From contig JAURNW010000029.1 in the NCBI GenBank assembly GCA_030829985.1, forward strand, positions 1 to 64,000: a DNA stretch of 64,000 bases, given 5' to 3'. This document shows positions 243 through 39,913 of this stretch, one piece after another. Source of the stretch: Gammaproteobacteria bacterium. Lineage in GTDB: Bacteria; Pseudomonadota; Gammaproteobacteria; Eutrophobiales; Eutrophobiaceae. A program made the position numbers and the translations under genes. Numbering within the stretch: position 1 is the first letter of the stretch; each line of letters begins with the position of its first letter. The notes beneath the pieces are model-generated. The model was not told the origin of the DNA and did not search any database. It saw nothing but the letters and a program-made list of their open reading frames with translations.

Positions 243-1619
243 ATGTCCATTAATAATTCAGAATCTAGTGTAAAGATATTAATCGTTGATGATGACGTAG
301 ACGTACTCAATCTGTTAGAAACCTGGCTGGAAAATGACATTTACAAAGTAAAAACATGTTTGTCCGGTTTGGAGGCAGTCAGTCAGATAGGAATTTACGC
401 TCCTGATATAGTCATTACAGATCTCTATATGGATGGTATGGATGGTATGGCGTTATTGAATCAACTTCATGAAGAAAACCCATTGCTTCCGGTTATTATG
501 CTCAGTGGCAAAGCGCAGATTCCGGAAGCAATAAAGGCGATGCACTTAGGGACGTCTGCATTTTTAACAAAGCCGATTAATAAGGCTGAATTTATGGAGA
601 CGGTAAGAAGAGTCACACCAAAACTTACAGATAAATCCATATTAAATGAATTCACAAAAAATATTATTTATAGAAGTAAAGAAATGTCTGACATTATTGA
701 GATGGCCAGTCTGGTCGCTGACAATGATGTTTCTGTTTTTATATCAGGTGCAACCGGCTCAGGGAAAGAAGTTATAGCAAAAGCTATACATGAGGCAAGT
801 TCCAGACGTGACCATCGATTTATAGCAGTAAACTGTGGCGCTATTCCCGAACAATTACTTGAGTCAGAATTATTTGGCCATGAAAAAGGCGCTTTTACAG
901 GCGCCAATGTTAAGCATGAAGGTCTTTTTCAGGCAGCTAACAAAGGCACTATCTTACTTGACGAGATTGGTGACATGCCACTTGCGCTTCAAGTTAAATT
1001 GTTAAGAGTATTGCAAGATTTTGAAGTGCGTCCAGTAGGTTCTACAAAGACTTATCCTATTGACGTTCGGTTGATTTCTGCAACACATAAAAATCTTGAA
1101 AAAGCAGTAGAGAAGGGCGAATTTAGAGAAGACCTGTATTATCGCTTGAAAGTAGTTCCTCTGGACATACCGAATCTTGCCAGTCGGGTGGATGATATTG
1201 CTCCCTTGGCGGAACATTTTCTGGCTAAATTTTCAAAAAATAATAAACAACAAGCCAAGAAGTTCTCACCTGACGCCATTAACTATCTTAGTTCCATGCC
1301 CTGGCCGGGCAATGTCCGTCAATTAATGAACGTCATAGATTTATGTGCGACTTTGTCCAAAAATAAAACTATCCCATTAAGTCTGGTGAAAAAAGCAGTA
1401 CATGATGACCCGATTCACATGCAGACTCTTAGAGAGGCCAAACAAGCATTTGAGAAGGGATATCTGTTAAGTGTAATGCGTATCACGCATGGACATGTAG
1501 CTAATGCGGCCAAGATAGCCGGGCGTAATCGCACTGAGTTTTACAAATTACTGAATCAGTATAATATTGAACCGGCAGCTTTTCGGGATAAAAAAAATGT
1601 CGAAAAAGAAGTGCATTGA
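243..1619 (+). CDS. Sigma-54-dependent response regulator (NtrC/AtoC type)
   Basis: A 458-residue transcriptional activator with three domains. The receiver domain (about 10-125) has the acidic pair D16/D17, phosphoacceptor D60, S89 and K110 (the LTKP motif). The AAA+ domain (about 143-372) has Walker A GATGSGKE at 169-176, the sigma-54 contact loop GAFTGA at 216-221 and Walker B with D240/E241. The C-terminus (about 405-450) is a Fis-type helix-turn-helix. Proteins of this type bind upstream enhancers and remodel sigma-54 polymerase after phosphorylation. It is followed closely by an HPt gene and a hybrid kinase, so D60 is probably the last phosphoacceptor of that relay. AGGAAG at 228-233 supports the ATG at 243. 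The target genes are not proven; the consensus sigma-54 promoter at 4684 is the nearest candidate. Confidence 0.93.
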   Translation: MSINNSESSVKILIVDDDVDVLNLLETWLENDIYKVKTCLSGLEAVSQIGIYAPDIVITDLYMDGMDGMALLNQLHEENPLLPVIMLSGKAQIPEAIKAMHLGTSAFLTKPINKAEFMETVRRVTPKLTDKSILNEFTKNIIYRSKEMSDIIEMASLVADNDVSVFISGATGSGKEVIAKAIHEASSRRDHRFIAVNCGAIPEQLLESELFGHEKGAFTGANVKHEGLFQAANKGTILLDEIGDMPLALQVKLLRVLQDFEVRPVGSTKTYPIDVRLISATHKNLEKAVEKGEFREDLYYRLKVVPLDIPNLASRVDDIAPLAEHFLAKFSKNNKQQAKKFSPDAINYLSSMPWPGNVRQLMNVIDLCATLSKNKTIPLSLVKKAVHDDPIHMQTLREAKQAFEKGYLLSVMRITHGHVANAAKIAGRNRTEFYKLLNQYNIEPAAFRDKKNVEKEVH

Positions 1620-1637: not shown

Positions 1638-1943
1638 ATGTCAGATGAAAAAATAATTATCCAGGTTGATCCTGATTTGGAAGATTTGATCCCGGGATTT
1701 CTTGAAAACAGAAAACTGGATGTAGAAAAATTACGTGCTGAACTGGAAAGTAATAATTTTATTAACCTTCAATCAATTGGTCACAGCATAAAAGGTGTGG
1801 GAGGTGGTTACGGATTTGACCTTATGTCAGAACTTGGCGCCGCAATTGAATCTGCTGCGAAAGAACAAAATTCCGAATTGGCACGTGAAAAAGTAGATCA
1901 ACTTTATAATTATCTTCAACGAGTAGTCGTTGAATATGCCTGA
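1638..1943 (+). CDS. Stand-alone HPt phosphotransfer protein
   Basis: A 101-residue protein consisting of a single histidine-phosphotransfer domain. The signature GHSIKGVGGGYG places the phosphorylated histidine at H49, followed by the usual Lys and small residues. It starts 18 bases after the response regulator stop and ends 17 bases before the hybrid kinase, so all three are very likely cotranscribed. The inferred role is to carry phosphate from the receiver of the hybrid kinase to D60 of the sigma-54 activator. It has no membrane segment, so it should be cytoplasmic. The domain call is solid; the partner assignment comes from gene order. Confidence 0.88.
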   Translation: MSDEKIIIQVDPDLEDLIPGFLENRKLDVEKLRAELESNNFINLQSIGHSIKGVGGGYGFDLMSELGAAIESAAKEQNSELAREKVDQLYNYLQRVVVEYA

Positions 1944-1960: not shown

Positions 1961-4507
1961 TTGATAAAAGATGAGAATCGATCTATCTCTAATCGATTTA
2001 CCTATGTAGTCACTTTCTTACTGGGTCTTGCGTTTAGTATCACACTGATGCAAAGCACCTGGAAAACCACAATCGAACGAAAACAAAAAGATTTTCATTT
2101 TGAAATATTATCTATTCAGCAATCTGTCGCGAGTAATATTCTGACAGGAAATGATGTTACTAATAACATTGCTGCGTTTATATCTTCTAATGACAATATT
2201 ACAGGACATCAATATGAAAATTTTTCAAACGATGTGCTTGGCCGTTTCGATCATATTGAAGCGATTAATTATTATGAGTTTACTGGTGATGACTGGGTCA
2301 ATGAGTTCAGGTTGGTTTATGAAGCAACGCGGAGTGAAAGCAGAATAAAAGTTGGCGAAGATATTTATAGCAATAAAAAATATATAGATGCAATTGATAC
2401 TTCCATAGCCAGCCGTTCCGTAGTGCCTTCTCCGCCTAGCATGGAAAGTGATCCGGATAGGAAATATTGGTTATTTAAAGCAATCTATAGCAATGATGAC
2501 TCTACCGCCATCAAGAAAAAAAAATATGCAGGCACTGTAAAGGGAATGGTATCGGTTTTGGTATCGCCTACAAGATTATTAGGTGATAAGGCAGTTAATA
2601 GTAGTTTAACTATTACAATGTTTAGTGATACCTCCAACCTGTACGGTCGACAACTATTGTATTTCAATGATCCTAATAAGGTAGCGACTGATAAATCATT
2701 TATCGTTGAAACACTTGTTGAAACAAAACTCATTCAACTCCCACCTTATTCTATTAAGATTATTATTGAGAAAAACCTTTATTTATCAGATATTGAATAT
2801 CACTTATTACTTGTAGCACTTTTAATATGTGTCGGTATTTTAATGATGCTGTACGGATTGGTCAGTGCAAGAATAAAACAGGAAGAAGAATTAAAAATAA
2901 GAAATTCTGTTATAGAACAAAAAGTCGAAGAACAGACACATGAACTTGCAATCGCAAGAGATGAAGCAGTTGAAGCTGTTCGTATGAAATCCGAGTTTCT
3001 GGCAAGCATGAGTCATGAGATACGAACACCACTTAATGCCATTATTGGTATGAGTGATTTGATGTCAGAGACAACGCTTACAAATGAACAAAAGCGTTAT
3101 GTCAATGTATTCAGAAAGGCTGGCAACGCATTGTTAAGTCTGGTTAATGATATTCTTGACCTTTCTAAAATAGAGGCAAATCAACTTTCTCTTGAGGAGA
3201 TTTCTTTCAATATACTGGATACGATTGAAGAGGAAGCTGAGATTTATGCATTGAAAGCAGCGGATAAGGATATTGAAATTATTACTCAGGTTGATACTGA
3301 CATTAATCTGTTTCGTATTGGTGACCCGAATAGATTAAAACAGATTATTCGCAATCTAATAAGTAACGCACTCAAGTTCACAGATAAAGGCGAAATTATT
3401 GTATCTTTATCTACTGACAAAAATAGTAGTCGGGCGGATCAAGTATTAATAAGTGTTAGTGATACAGGTATCGGAATAGCAAAGGATAAGCTGGAAGCTA
3501 TATTCGCCAGTTTTACACAAGCAGACACCTCCACGACGCGTAAATATGGTGGAACTGGACTAGGGTTGACCATTTCCAAGAGACTTACGGAAATGATGCA
3601 AGGAAAGATTTGGGTAGAAAGTGAAGAAGGAGATCGCAGTAAATTTTATGTCAGTATTAATTTACCGGAATTATCCAAACAATCAACTTTAAGTCAGGAA
3701 TATAAGCACAAGAATATTTTAATAATCGATTCCCGAAAAAGTAACTGTCAAAGTATTTCGGCGCAATTAATTGCGGCTGGCGCCAGTTGTGGGGAAGCAT
3801 CCAGTTTGTCTGAGGCACAATCTCTGATGAAGCCGAATAAAACAATTGATGCTGTTATTGTTGATAGTCATCTGGTTTTTTCAGGCAATGAGATTGAGCC
3901 ATGGTTAAGCGAAACTATCGGTGTTGATAATGTAGTTCTACTGATAAATCCAAAAGAATCAAATGAGTATCTGGAAAAAGCAAAATCGTTTAAATTTACT
4001 AAATTCCTGTTAAAACCCGTCAAGCGTAAAGATCTTTATACGCAAGTTAGTAAAGCATTAAACACGGCAGATGAAACGACTGTTCTTCTTACTAGAGAAA
4101 ATTCAGAGGTCGATGAAACAACACCCAGGCATATTCTGTTAGTCGAAGATAATCCTGATAATCGGATGCTTATCCAGGCATATCTGAAAAAGACTCCGCA
4201 CACGCTTGATGAAGCTGAAAATGGCGCTATTGCTGTCGAAATGTATAAACAGAATCACTATGATCTCGTCTTTATGGATGTGCAGATGCCGGTTATGGAT
4301 GGCCATCAGGCAACTCGATTGATTCGTGAATGGGAGCAGCAAGAATCTAAACCGCGCACTATAATCATCTCTCTTACAGCGCATGCAATACGTGAAGAAG
4401 TTGAAAAATGTCTTGAATCAGGTTGTGACTCACATCTGAGTAAACCAATTAAAAAAGCCACCTTATTACAGGCTATTCATGATCTGAAATCCGAAGCCGG
4501 CCAGTAA
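1961..4507 (+). CDS. CHASE-type hybrid sensor histidine kinase with two receiver domains
   Basis: An 848-residue inner-membrane kinase. The TTG start at 1961 is chosen because AAGGTG at 1950-1955 precedes it and no ATG fits. A first membrane segment (about 14-32) and a second (about 281-301) bracket a periplasmic region resembling a CHASE domain. A coiled coil (305-340) leads to HisKA with the phospho-histidine H352 (SHEIRTPLNA), then a HATPase with the N-box NLISNALKF and GTGLGL. A first receiver (about 580-700) is partly degenerate, with one acid-pocket residue replaced (IIDSRK). The terminal receiver (724-848) is complete, with D773 in MDVQMPVMDG and a C-terminal SKPI lysine. The expected relay is H352 to D773 to the HPt protein to the sigma-54 regulator. 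The signal sensed is unknown. Confidence 0.9.
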   Translation: MIKDENRSISNRFTYVVTFLLGLAFSITLMQSTWKTTIERKQKDFHFEILSIQQSVASNILTGNDVTNNIAAFISSNDNITGHQYENFSNDVLGRFDHIEAINYYEFTGDDWVNEFRLVYEATRSESRIKVGEDIYSNKKYIDAIDTSIASRSVVPSPPSMESDPDRKYWLFKAIYSNDDSTAIKKKKYAGTVKGMVSVLVSPTRLLGDKAVNSSLTITMFSDTSNLYGRQLLYFNDPNKVATDKSFIVETLVETKLIQLPPYSIKIIIEKNLYLSDIEYHLLLVALLICVGILMMLYGLVSARIKQEEELKIRNSVIEQKVEEQTHELAIARDEAVEAVRMKSEFLASMSHEIRTPLNAIIGMSDLMSETTLTNEQKRYVNVFRKAGNALLSLVNDILDLSKIEANQLSLEEISFNILDTIEEEAEIYALKAADKDIEIITQVDTDINLFRIGDPNRLKQIIRNLISNALKFTDKGEIIVSLSTDKNSSRADQVLISVSDTGIGIAKDKLEAIFASFTQADTSTTRKYGGTGLGLTISKRLTEMMQGKIWVESEEGDRSKFYVSINLPELSKQSTLSQEYKHKNILIIDSRKSNCQSISAQLIAAGASCGEASSLSEAQSLMKPNKTIDAVIVDSHLVFSGNEIEPWLSETIGVDNVVLLINPKESNEYLEKAKSFKFTKFLLKPVKRKDLYTQVSKALNTADETTVLLTRENSEVDETTPRHILLVEDNPDNRMLIQAYLKKTPHTLDEAENGAIAVEMYKQNHYDLVFMDVQMPVMDGHQATRLIREWEQQESKPRTIIISLTAHAIREEVEKCLESGCDSHLSKPIKKATLLQAIHDLKSEAGQ

Positions 4508-4510
4508 AAA

Positions 4511-4530
4511 ACGTCGTAATTAAACGACGT
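4511..4530. terminator. Stem-loop after the phosphorelay operon
   Basis: A perfect 7-bp stem (ACGTCGT / ACGACGT) with loop AATTAA begins 4 bases after the kinase stop. There is no U-run after it, so it may be an RNA-stabilising hairpin or a weak terminator. Confidence 0.4.
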
Positions 4531-4683: not shown

Positions 4684-4698
4684 TGGCACATCGATTGC
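4684..4698 (+). promoter_or_regulatory. Sigma-54 (RpoN) promoter, -24/-12
   Basis: TGGCAC, five bases, TTGC matches the RpoN consensus TGGCAC-N5-TTGC exactly, with correct GG-to-GC spacing. It lies 45 bases upstream of the ATG at 4744 and about 180 bases after a complete sigma-54 phosphorelay. Established knowledge: this element is diagnostic of RpoN promoters and is common before exopolysaccharide genes of the PEP-CTERM type. Activity has not been shown, and the gene it faces looks broken. Confidence 0.75.
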
Positions 4699-4743
4699 GT
4701 TCTCTCATTTTAGTCATAGGATTAATCATATAAGAGAGTCGGG

Positions 4744-5010
4744 ATGGTAAAACTATTTGGTATCAGAATCACACCGTTTTTCCTTTATATTTTAGGTCTT
4801 GAATGCCTATCATTATTGATATGCATTTATATAGGTATTTTATTTGATAGAGGTGTGCCCGGGTTCCTGCCGTATGCTTCTATACATAATCTGGTCTATC
4901 CAGGGATGCTGTTCTAATAATTGAGTTTGTTGGATGTTTATCGACGTAATTATGTTTGTACGTGGATATTGGTGCTTTCCAGCGTGGTCTGGATGCAGAT
5001 TAAAGGATAA
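4744..5010 (+). pseudogene. Remnant of an EpsB-like sugar transferase N-terminus
   Basis: From the ATG at 4744 (AAGAGAG at 4732-4738 as ribosome site) a 57-codon ORF encodes a small membrane-type protein starting MVKLFGIRITPFFLYILGL. This resembles, from memory, the first membrane segment of EpsB/XrtA-associated sugar transferases. Tandem TAA TAA stops occur at 4915-4920. The same frame then stays open for 29 more codons (LSLLDVYRRNYVCTW and a hydrophobic stretch) to a stop at 5008-5010, and the later part again looks like the family's second membrane region. No catalytic glycosyltransferase domain follows: the convergent hydrolase gene begins at once. Most likely a truncated, decayed gene; alternatively a functional 57-residue membrane peptide under sigma-54 control. 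Confidence 0.5.
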
Positions 5011-5560
5011 GTTTGCTGATGGATTTAAATTCTGGATGCGATGCATCTCGTAACCATTCAAATAGTACTGACTCCGTATTCAATAAACTAACATCAGCTT
5101 GTTTTAAACGTAGTAATGCAGATTCATAACTGGTTAATTCTCGAGAAGCGATGGCATCAATAACGACATAAACATCAAACCCATCAGCAGCAAGCTCTAT
5201 CGCACTTTGAAATACACAAATGTGTGCTTCGATTCCAATAAGTATAATTTGTTTACGGTTTAATTTAGTCAGGTGCGTTTTAAATCCATCAGCTCCCAGG
5301 CAGGAAAAACGGGTTTTTTCAAAGTTTAGTGATGAGTTTGTGAGGTTTTTTGTAATAAATGATTCGATTGGGCCAAGCCCTTTGGGGTATTGTGCCGTTG
5401 TGATAACAGGAGCATTTAAAGCGTTGGCAGTATTTAATAATATACTAGTGTTTTTTCTTAAACGATTAATGACTTTATCCGGTATTGCAGAGGTTAATTT
5501 TTCCTGAACATCGATGATGACAAGGCAACTATCTTCAATATCGCATAATTTTTTTAACAT
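5000..5560 (-). CDS. Isochorismatase-family cysteine hydrolase
   Basis: A 186-residue alpha/beta hydrolase of the isochorismatase-like superfamily. The catalytic triad is visible as D17 (VIIDVQE), K82 and C115 (GIEAHICVFQ), with the cis-peptide region before the cysteine intact. The length is typical of the short YcaC-like or nicotinamidase-like branch. The substrate cannot be told from sequence; true isochorismatase activity is unlikely without menaquinone or siderophore genes nearby. It is the last gene of a minus-strand run with the Pcm-like protein, rhodanese and tolC, starting 11 bases after the tolC stop. Its 3' end overlaps the end of the EpsB-like remnant on the other strand by 11 bases. 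Confidence 0.85.
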   Translation of the reverse strand: MLKKLCDIEDSCLVIIDVQEKLTSAIPDKVINRLRKNTSILLNTANALNAPVITTAQYPKGLGPIESFITKNLTNSSLNFEKTRFSCLGADGFKTHLTKLNRKQIILIGIEAHICVFQSAIELAADGFDVYVVIDAIASRELTSYESALLRLKQADVSLLNTESVLFEWLRDASHPEFKSISKLIL

Positions 5561-7940: not shown

Positions 7941-9952
<2,012 letters not shown>

Positions 9953-39836: not shown

Positions 39837-39913
39837 TGCGGGGTGGAGCAGTCTGGCAGCTCGTCGGGCTCATAACCCGAAGGTCGCAGGTTCAAATCCT
39901 GCCCCCGCTACCA
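39837..39913 (+). tRNA. metY: Initiator tRNA-fMet (CAT)
   Basis: A 77-base tRNA with encoded CCA (39911-39913). The acceptor stem pairs six bases (2-71 to 7-66), the anticodon loop CTCATAA is flanked by three G-C pairs (GGG/CCC), an initiator hallmark, and the D-stem has the A11-U24 pair. Position 1 is T and 72 is T, so the 1-72 pair is mismatched, as initiation requires, but not the usual C-A. Lies upstream of rimP-nusA as metY does in E. coli. Confidence 0.97.

Follow-up and report, generated by a model that had tools for sequence, protein, structure and literature searches.

A probable inactivated target gene, related to the N-terminal membrane domain of EpsB-type sugar transferases, beside an intact sigma-54 phosphorelay in a gammaproteobacterium

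In the Vibrio LuxO-LuxU-LuxQ relay, a sigma-54 regulator is combined with an HPt protein and a hybrid kinase, and the targets of LuxO are the Qrr small RNAs. Two-component control through sigma-54 (RpoN) promoters is also a feature of the PEP-CTERM PrsK/PrsR system, and in Aquincola the EpsB2 gene adjoins the PrsK/PrsR genes (PMC9850573). EpsB (TIGR03013), together with WcaJ, WbaP and EpsZ, belongs to the large monotopic phosphoglycosyl transferases, whose N-terminal domain is a bundle of four transmembrane (TM) helices (PMC12802240; PMC4361858). WcaJ is active with its C-terminal part alone, and the role of the TM bundle within the full enzymes is unclear (PMC4361858). Here we describe a gammaproteobacterial locus in which a phosphorelay of the LuxO-LuxU-LuxQ layout is followed by a sigma-54 promoter and by the remains of a gene that, in relatives, is predicted to encode such a bundle as a protein of its own.

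The window analyzed here is a stretch of 64,000 nucleotides (64 kb) from a genome represented by one draft assembly in 35 contigs, which was searched by pattern and by family. As the preliminary description had stated, a complete sigma-54 regulator, an HPt protein and a hybrid kinase are encoded upstream of the broken frame, and Pfam matches and key motifs confirmed all three. The regulator (positions 243-1619, forward strand, 458 aa) has a receiver domain (Response_reg, 9.5e-28), an AAA+ domain (Sigma54_activat, 2e-71; AAA_lid_14) with its GAFTGA motif at residue 216, and a C-terminal helix-turn-helix that appeared by eye to be of Fis type, HTH_8 being matched only with an E-value of 0.53. 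The HPt phosphotransfer protein (1638-1943, forward strand, 101 aa; Pfam Hpt, 5.3e-9) carries a GHSIKG motif. The hybrid histidine kinase (1961-4507, forward strand, 848 aa) has HisKA and HATPase domains, two predicted TM helices on either side of approximately 250 residues, and two receiver stretches recognized by Pfam, the better one at residues 725-839. The second receiver is canonical, while the first receiver-like domain (3721-4050, residues ~587-700) appeared degenerate by eye. The phospho-acceptor motifs and kinase boxes are present, and the genome also encodes rpoN. Orthologues of the kinase were found in nine relatives with 60 to 77% identity. One Woeseiaceae locus (L033) was considered as a member of the same system and rejected, as its GlrR-type regulator is an independent one and has no HPt protein or hybrid kinase with it. 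Elsewhere in the window, a TPP riboswitch (Rfam RF00059, 66 bits) was observed at 7942-8030 on the forward strand, directly upstream of a thiC-like gene, and a tRNA gene at 39837-39910 on the same strand, upstream of what looks by eye to be a rimP-nusA-infB run.

Downstream of the kinase, an ATG at 4744 opens a frame of 57 codons that is closed by tandem stops (TAATAA, 4915-4920) and continues for 29 residues (4921-5007) up to a TAA at 5008-5010, exactly as first described. With the 57-residue peptide as the query, genomes of the family yielded a syntenic gene in eight relatives, directly behind the kinase orthologues. Seven copies are intact and encode 145 to 147 aa (G001, G004, G006, G007, G009, G011, and G017), and a profile search added diverged versions of 131 to 132 aa from two other genera (G016 and G019), where they occupy the same position. 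In these nine relatives the protein is complete and stand-alone, and it has no transferase domain. The intact copies showed pN/pS ratios of 0.08 to 0.56, indicating that they are constrained proteins. Of the seven genus-level intact copies, six have about four TM helices by hydropathy, and G017 has three clear peaks. A small membrane protein had been put forward earlier as the possible real target of the promoter. Close relatives do have one, of 145-147 rather than 57 residues; the 57-codon frame is not what they conserve, their gene having about 145 codons.

The 57 codons of the window (4744-4917, forward strand), which include TM helix 1, correspond to the 5' part of this gene: nhmmer gave 7.8e-40 against the relatives' promoter and gene, and identity to G009 and G011 was 55%. 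In the MAFFT alignment, approximately 178 nt are missing after position ~4907, which shifted the frame and created the tandem TAA. Junction and frame-shifted 3' remnant together span 4907-5003 on the forward strand. The end of the remnant (TAA, 5001-5003) coincides with the stop of the ancestral gene, and within the remnant the alignment shows two indels of 1 nt each and, when the ancestral frame is followed, one extra stop. The convergent neighbour is an isochorismatase-family hydrolase gene (5000-5560, reverse strand; Pfam Isochorismatase, 8e-26). The tail DNA aligned with the 3' end of the gene and not with its middle (at most 8 of 200 shuffles were as good, for seven of the eight relatives). 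For G011, the closest relative, 52 of 200 shuffles were as good and neither placement beat the shuffles; nhmmer placed only the last 40 nt of the tail, at -3.3 bits. The 29-residue second part is best read as an out-of-frame translation of the gene's tail, with a likeness to EpsB that is probably fortuitous. We also considered this piece as the GLYxR region of EpsB and rejected it, since the DNA fits the C-terminal end of the gene better, except in the comparison with G011. By these alignments, we interpret the frame 4744-5010 as a pseudogene, though not of a full EpsB.

A phylogenetic tree of the kinase placed the window's genome (G000) as sister to G011 with support of 100/99. As the G011 copy is intact, the loss appears to be recent. 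The kinase branch of G000 was not unusual in length (0.21, compared with 0.16 for G011). The first 56 codons of the broken gene gave pN/pS values of 0.30 to 0.44, the same constraint as in the intact copies, suggesting either that the loss is recent or that a short peptide still matters. In the latter case, the 57-codon frame would be a functional micropeptide with one TM helix, expressed from the sigma-54 promoter, and the intact promoter, ribosome-binding region and start codon would fit with the unrelaxed 5' part. We consider such a micropeptide improbable, because all nine intact orthologues have 131-147 aa and because the ~178-nt deletion occurs in one genome only, where it left a frame-shifted tail remnant behind. 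The gene was also lost, in other ways, from two relatives: the G005 copy has a frameshift, and the G003 copy is cut next to an IS3-type transposase. Three kinds of lesion in the copies of three genomes point to a dispensable gene, and the flanks and the convergent neighbour of the window's copy are collinear with those of the relatives. These observations make it extremely unlikely that the break is an assembly error, even though the window's genome is a single draft in 35 contigs. Some of the relatives' genomes are themselves incomplete. In G003, which is 85% complete, we found no close orthologue of the kinase, and an IS3-type transposase pair (L229) was observed to occupy the place where the phosphorelay and the 5' end of the TM gene would be expected.

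The preliminary description had compared both parts of the frame with the N-terminus of an EpsB-type sugar transferase and proposed a profile search of the two. When the 57- and 88-residue fragments were searched directly against the NCBIfam HMMs, neither segment had a match. As the fragments alone match nothing, the homology is visible only through the intact orthologues, and by that route the likeness stood for the 57-residue part and fell for the 29-residue part, whose DNA is the out-of-frame tail. Four of five intact orthologues weakly matched the first ~120 positions of TIGR03013 or of its parent TIGR03025 (E 0.01 to 0.74), reaching at most 15 of 393 bits against the full TIGR03013 model, which is under the family cut-off. 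When a profile of seven proteins was searched against 369 genomes of the class, the best match outside the genus was the N-terminus of a 465-aa EpsB from G034 (E 5.8e-9). An hhalign comparison with six EpsB N-termini gave 97% (E 6e-11, 127 columns), and reversed controls gave 7 to 20%. Among 7,299 ORFs, other relatives of sugar transferases included, only true EpsB proteins came next after the orthologues. The catalytic Bac_transf domain (PF02397) was absent from the intact orthologues in Pfam searches. Judging from these profiles, the intact protein is an EpsB-type phosphoglycosyl transferase TM domain without the enzyme part. Since the C-terminal part of WcaJ suffices for activity, a stand-alone bundle of this type cannot be the enzyme.

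This homology, remote yet specific to the N-terminus of TIGR03013, would also be expected if the locus were the decayed edge of an exopolysaccharide (EPS) or PEP-CTERM locus and the frame a truncated full-length EpsB, as had been proposed. PEP-CTERM genes are known to be under RpoN control (PMC9850573), and the full EpsB genes of G019 and G015 have sigma-54-like promoters. However, the relatives have a complete gene of 131-147 aa that is always followed directly by the convergent isochorismatase gene, with no EPS genes at the locus. TIGR03013 had no match in the window's genome and none above the cut-off in the sampled genus, the suggested exosortase search (PF09721) found none in the window's genome or in the whole sampled genus, and the regulator scored 360 bits against the PEP-CTERM regulator model TIGR02915, short of its cut-off of 502.6. 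A decayed EPS locus edge is thus highly improbable for the window, and for the nearest relatives it is already refuted.

The promoter sequence itself was confirmed. A sigma-54 -24/-12 element, TGGCACATCGATTGCG (4684-4699, forward strand), contains the core TGGCACATCGATTGC (TGGCAC-ATCGA-TTGC) at 4684-4698, with canonical GG-N10-GC spacing, 60 nt ahead of the ATG at 4744. The exact pattern TGGCAC-N5-TTGC occurs nowhere else in the 64-kb window, where 0.20 matches are expected by chance and at least one was found in 19 of 100 shuffles. Taken alone, this exact match is modest evidence. What makes the promoter convincing is its conservation at orthologous start codons: the pattern TGGCA[CT]A[TG][CT]G[AC]TTGCG sits 49 to 61 nt before the start codon in eight relatives (genera g1 and g7) and is kept beyond the sigma-54 consensus itself. 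The genome-wide scan proposed earlier gave two copies of the exact pattern; the second lies within a gene for a pseudopilin, on the other strand.

A palindrome, ACGTCGT-AATTAA-ACGACGT (4511-4530, forward strand), lies ~160 bp upstream of the promoter and starts 4 nt past the stop codon of the kinase gene. We propose it as the activator site (UAS) of the response regulator. Such palindromes (GTCGT-N6-ACGAC) precede the -24 box by 156 to 200 bp at the TM gene (g1, g7, and G016). A second, unlinked gene, which encodes a protein of ~97-99 aa and is described below, has the palindrome 111 to 124 bp before its -24 box in ten genomes; the site is poor (7/11) in G019 and G054. In the upstream regions of the two genes, the exact gapped form was present in 7 of 23, compared with three or fewer in any of 30 shuffled sets. 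With a matrix trained only on the ten sites of this ~99-aa gene, all from other genomes, window position 4509 ranked first in the 64 kb with a score of 24.0 (next site, 15.7; best of 20 shuffles, 18.4), and the equivalent place ranked first at the TM-gene locus of every relative. Nearly all true sites score between 18 and 31. The other TGGCAYN5TTGCR sites of the window's genome (L163-L165 and L167-L169) lack the palindrome upstream (best score, 4.5), and this genome may have further genes that combine the palindrome with a weaker promoter. Two full-length EpsB genes, L007 (G019) and L008 (G015), were considered as possible further targets in this regulon; their sigma-54-like promoters read TGGCACAGCGCTTGCG and TGGCATTCCACTTGCA, and the palindrome upstream of them is weak, with scores of 12.6 in G015 and 7.9 in G019. 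Given its start 4 nt after the kinase stop and its capacity to form a hairpin, the window's palindrome could instead serve the kinase operon as its transcription terminator, with no regulatory role. This is very unlikely, since the palindrome is not followed by a T run in the window and ten genomes have the same sequence upstream of the unlinked gene, 111-124 bp from a promoter of the same type. As a regulator site, the palindrome would tie the adjacent regulator to both genes.

The unlinked gene came to light in a family scan with TGGCAYANYGNTTGCR, which, besides the TM gene, returned it in G007, G009, and G017. Homologues were found in 12 of 53 genomes, 10 of them with a sigma-54 promoter 41 to 55 nt upstream; the G011 and G019 copies have a degraded -12 element. 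The protein had no meaningful Pfam or NCBIfam match. All nine genomes with an intact TM gene also have the ~99-aa gene, compared with 3 of the 44 others (Fisher 5e-8, kinship ignored). No homologue was found in the window's genome by a single protein search, and a search of that genome for the neighbour of the gene also came back empty, a result of little weight. G003, in which no close kinase orthologue was found, retains the gene and its promoter elsewhere in the genome, so that another activator for it may exist there. The loci L208 to L219 (e.g., L208:1495-1791, forward strand) make up an undescribed family of soluble proteins of ~97-99 aa with a conserved sigma-54 promoter, and in several genomes the gene was seen by eye to adjoin one for a cyclic-nucleotide-domain-like protein.

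We conclude, with a probability of roughly 0.8, that 4744-5010 is a recently inactivated target of the adjacent phosphorelay, whose switch has been orphaned with palindrome and promoter intact. The earlier suggestion of an orphaned regulator largely holds, as the phosphorelay is intact and no intact target was found in the genome. In the proposed mechanism, a signal would meet the extracytoplasmic region of the kinase and cause autophosphorylation, and the phosphate would pass from the kinase receiver to the HPt protein and on to the sigma-54 response regulator. Bound to the GTCGT-N6-ACGAC palindrome, the regulator would drive the ATP-dependent opening of the TGGCA[CT]-N5-TTGC promoter by RNA polymerase-sigma54. 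The output in relatives would be the stand-alone TM bundle of 131-147 aa and the unlinked soluble protein of ~97-99 aa, whereas the window's genome has kept the phosphorelay, its TM gene has lost ~178 nt and shifted frame, and we could find no output gene intact. Sigma-54 is broadly associated with genes of the cell exterior (PMC3162934), and a response-regulator protein that acts directly on an initiating transferase is known (PMC12802240). For these reasons, our best guess for the intact protein is a modulating role, exerted on an initiating sugar transferase or on some other process of the envelope. It is possible, though we would not bet on it, that this undescribed family of catalysis-free EpsB-type TM bundles and its ~99-aa soluble partner account for most of what a dedicated sigma-54 phosphorelay controls, or for all of it, and serve as a switchable modulator of polysaccharide initiation or of another process of the envelope. 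The window's genome would then be a knock-out strain made by nature, with both outputs gone.

The locus offers a naturally dissected regulon, in which the phosphorelay, the probable enhancer and the sigma-54 promoters can be read from comparison alone, and close relatives offer intact, broken and absent target genes. Here the TM bundle that forms the N-terminus of an initiating sugar transferase is found as a regulated gene of its own. Because its role within the complete enzymes is unclear, a conserved stand-alone version provides a direct way to ask what it does.

Among described systems, the large monotopic phosphoglycosyl transferases have an N-terminal TM domain homologous to the intact protein, but here the gene ends after the TM part, with neither the middle domain nor Bac_transf. 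Like PrsK/PrsR, the locus combines two-component control with RpoN promoters; it differs in having a hybrid kinase and an HPt protein, a regulator outside TIGR02915 and a stand-alone TM target in a genus without exosortase. GlrR (QseF) gave the regulator its best NCBIfam score (NF011695, 509.8 bits), which is below the equivalog cut-off of 763, and the regulator is coupled here to an HPt protein and a hybrid kinase. The layout of sigma-54 regulator, HPt protein and hybrid kinase is the same as in the Vibrio relay, but all three proteins scored below the cut-offs of the corresponding models (regulator against LuxO, 316 of 800 bits; kinase against LuxQ, 322 of 1200 bits; HPt against LuxU, a weak similarity of E 2e-4 and 21.6 bits under a 140-bit cut-off), and the conserved targets here are protein genes rather than small RNAs.
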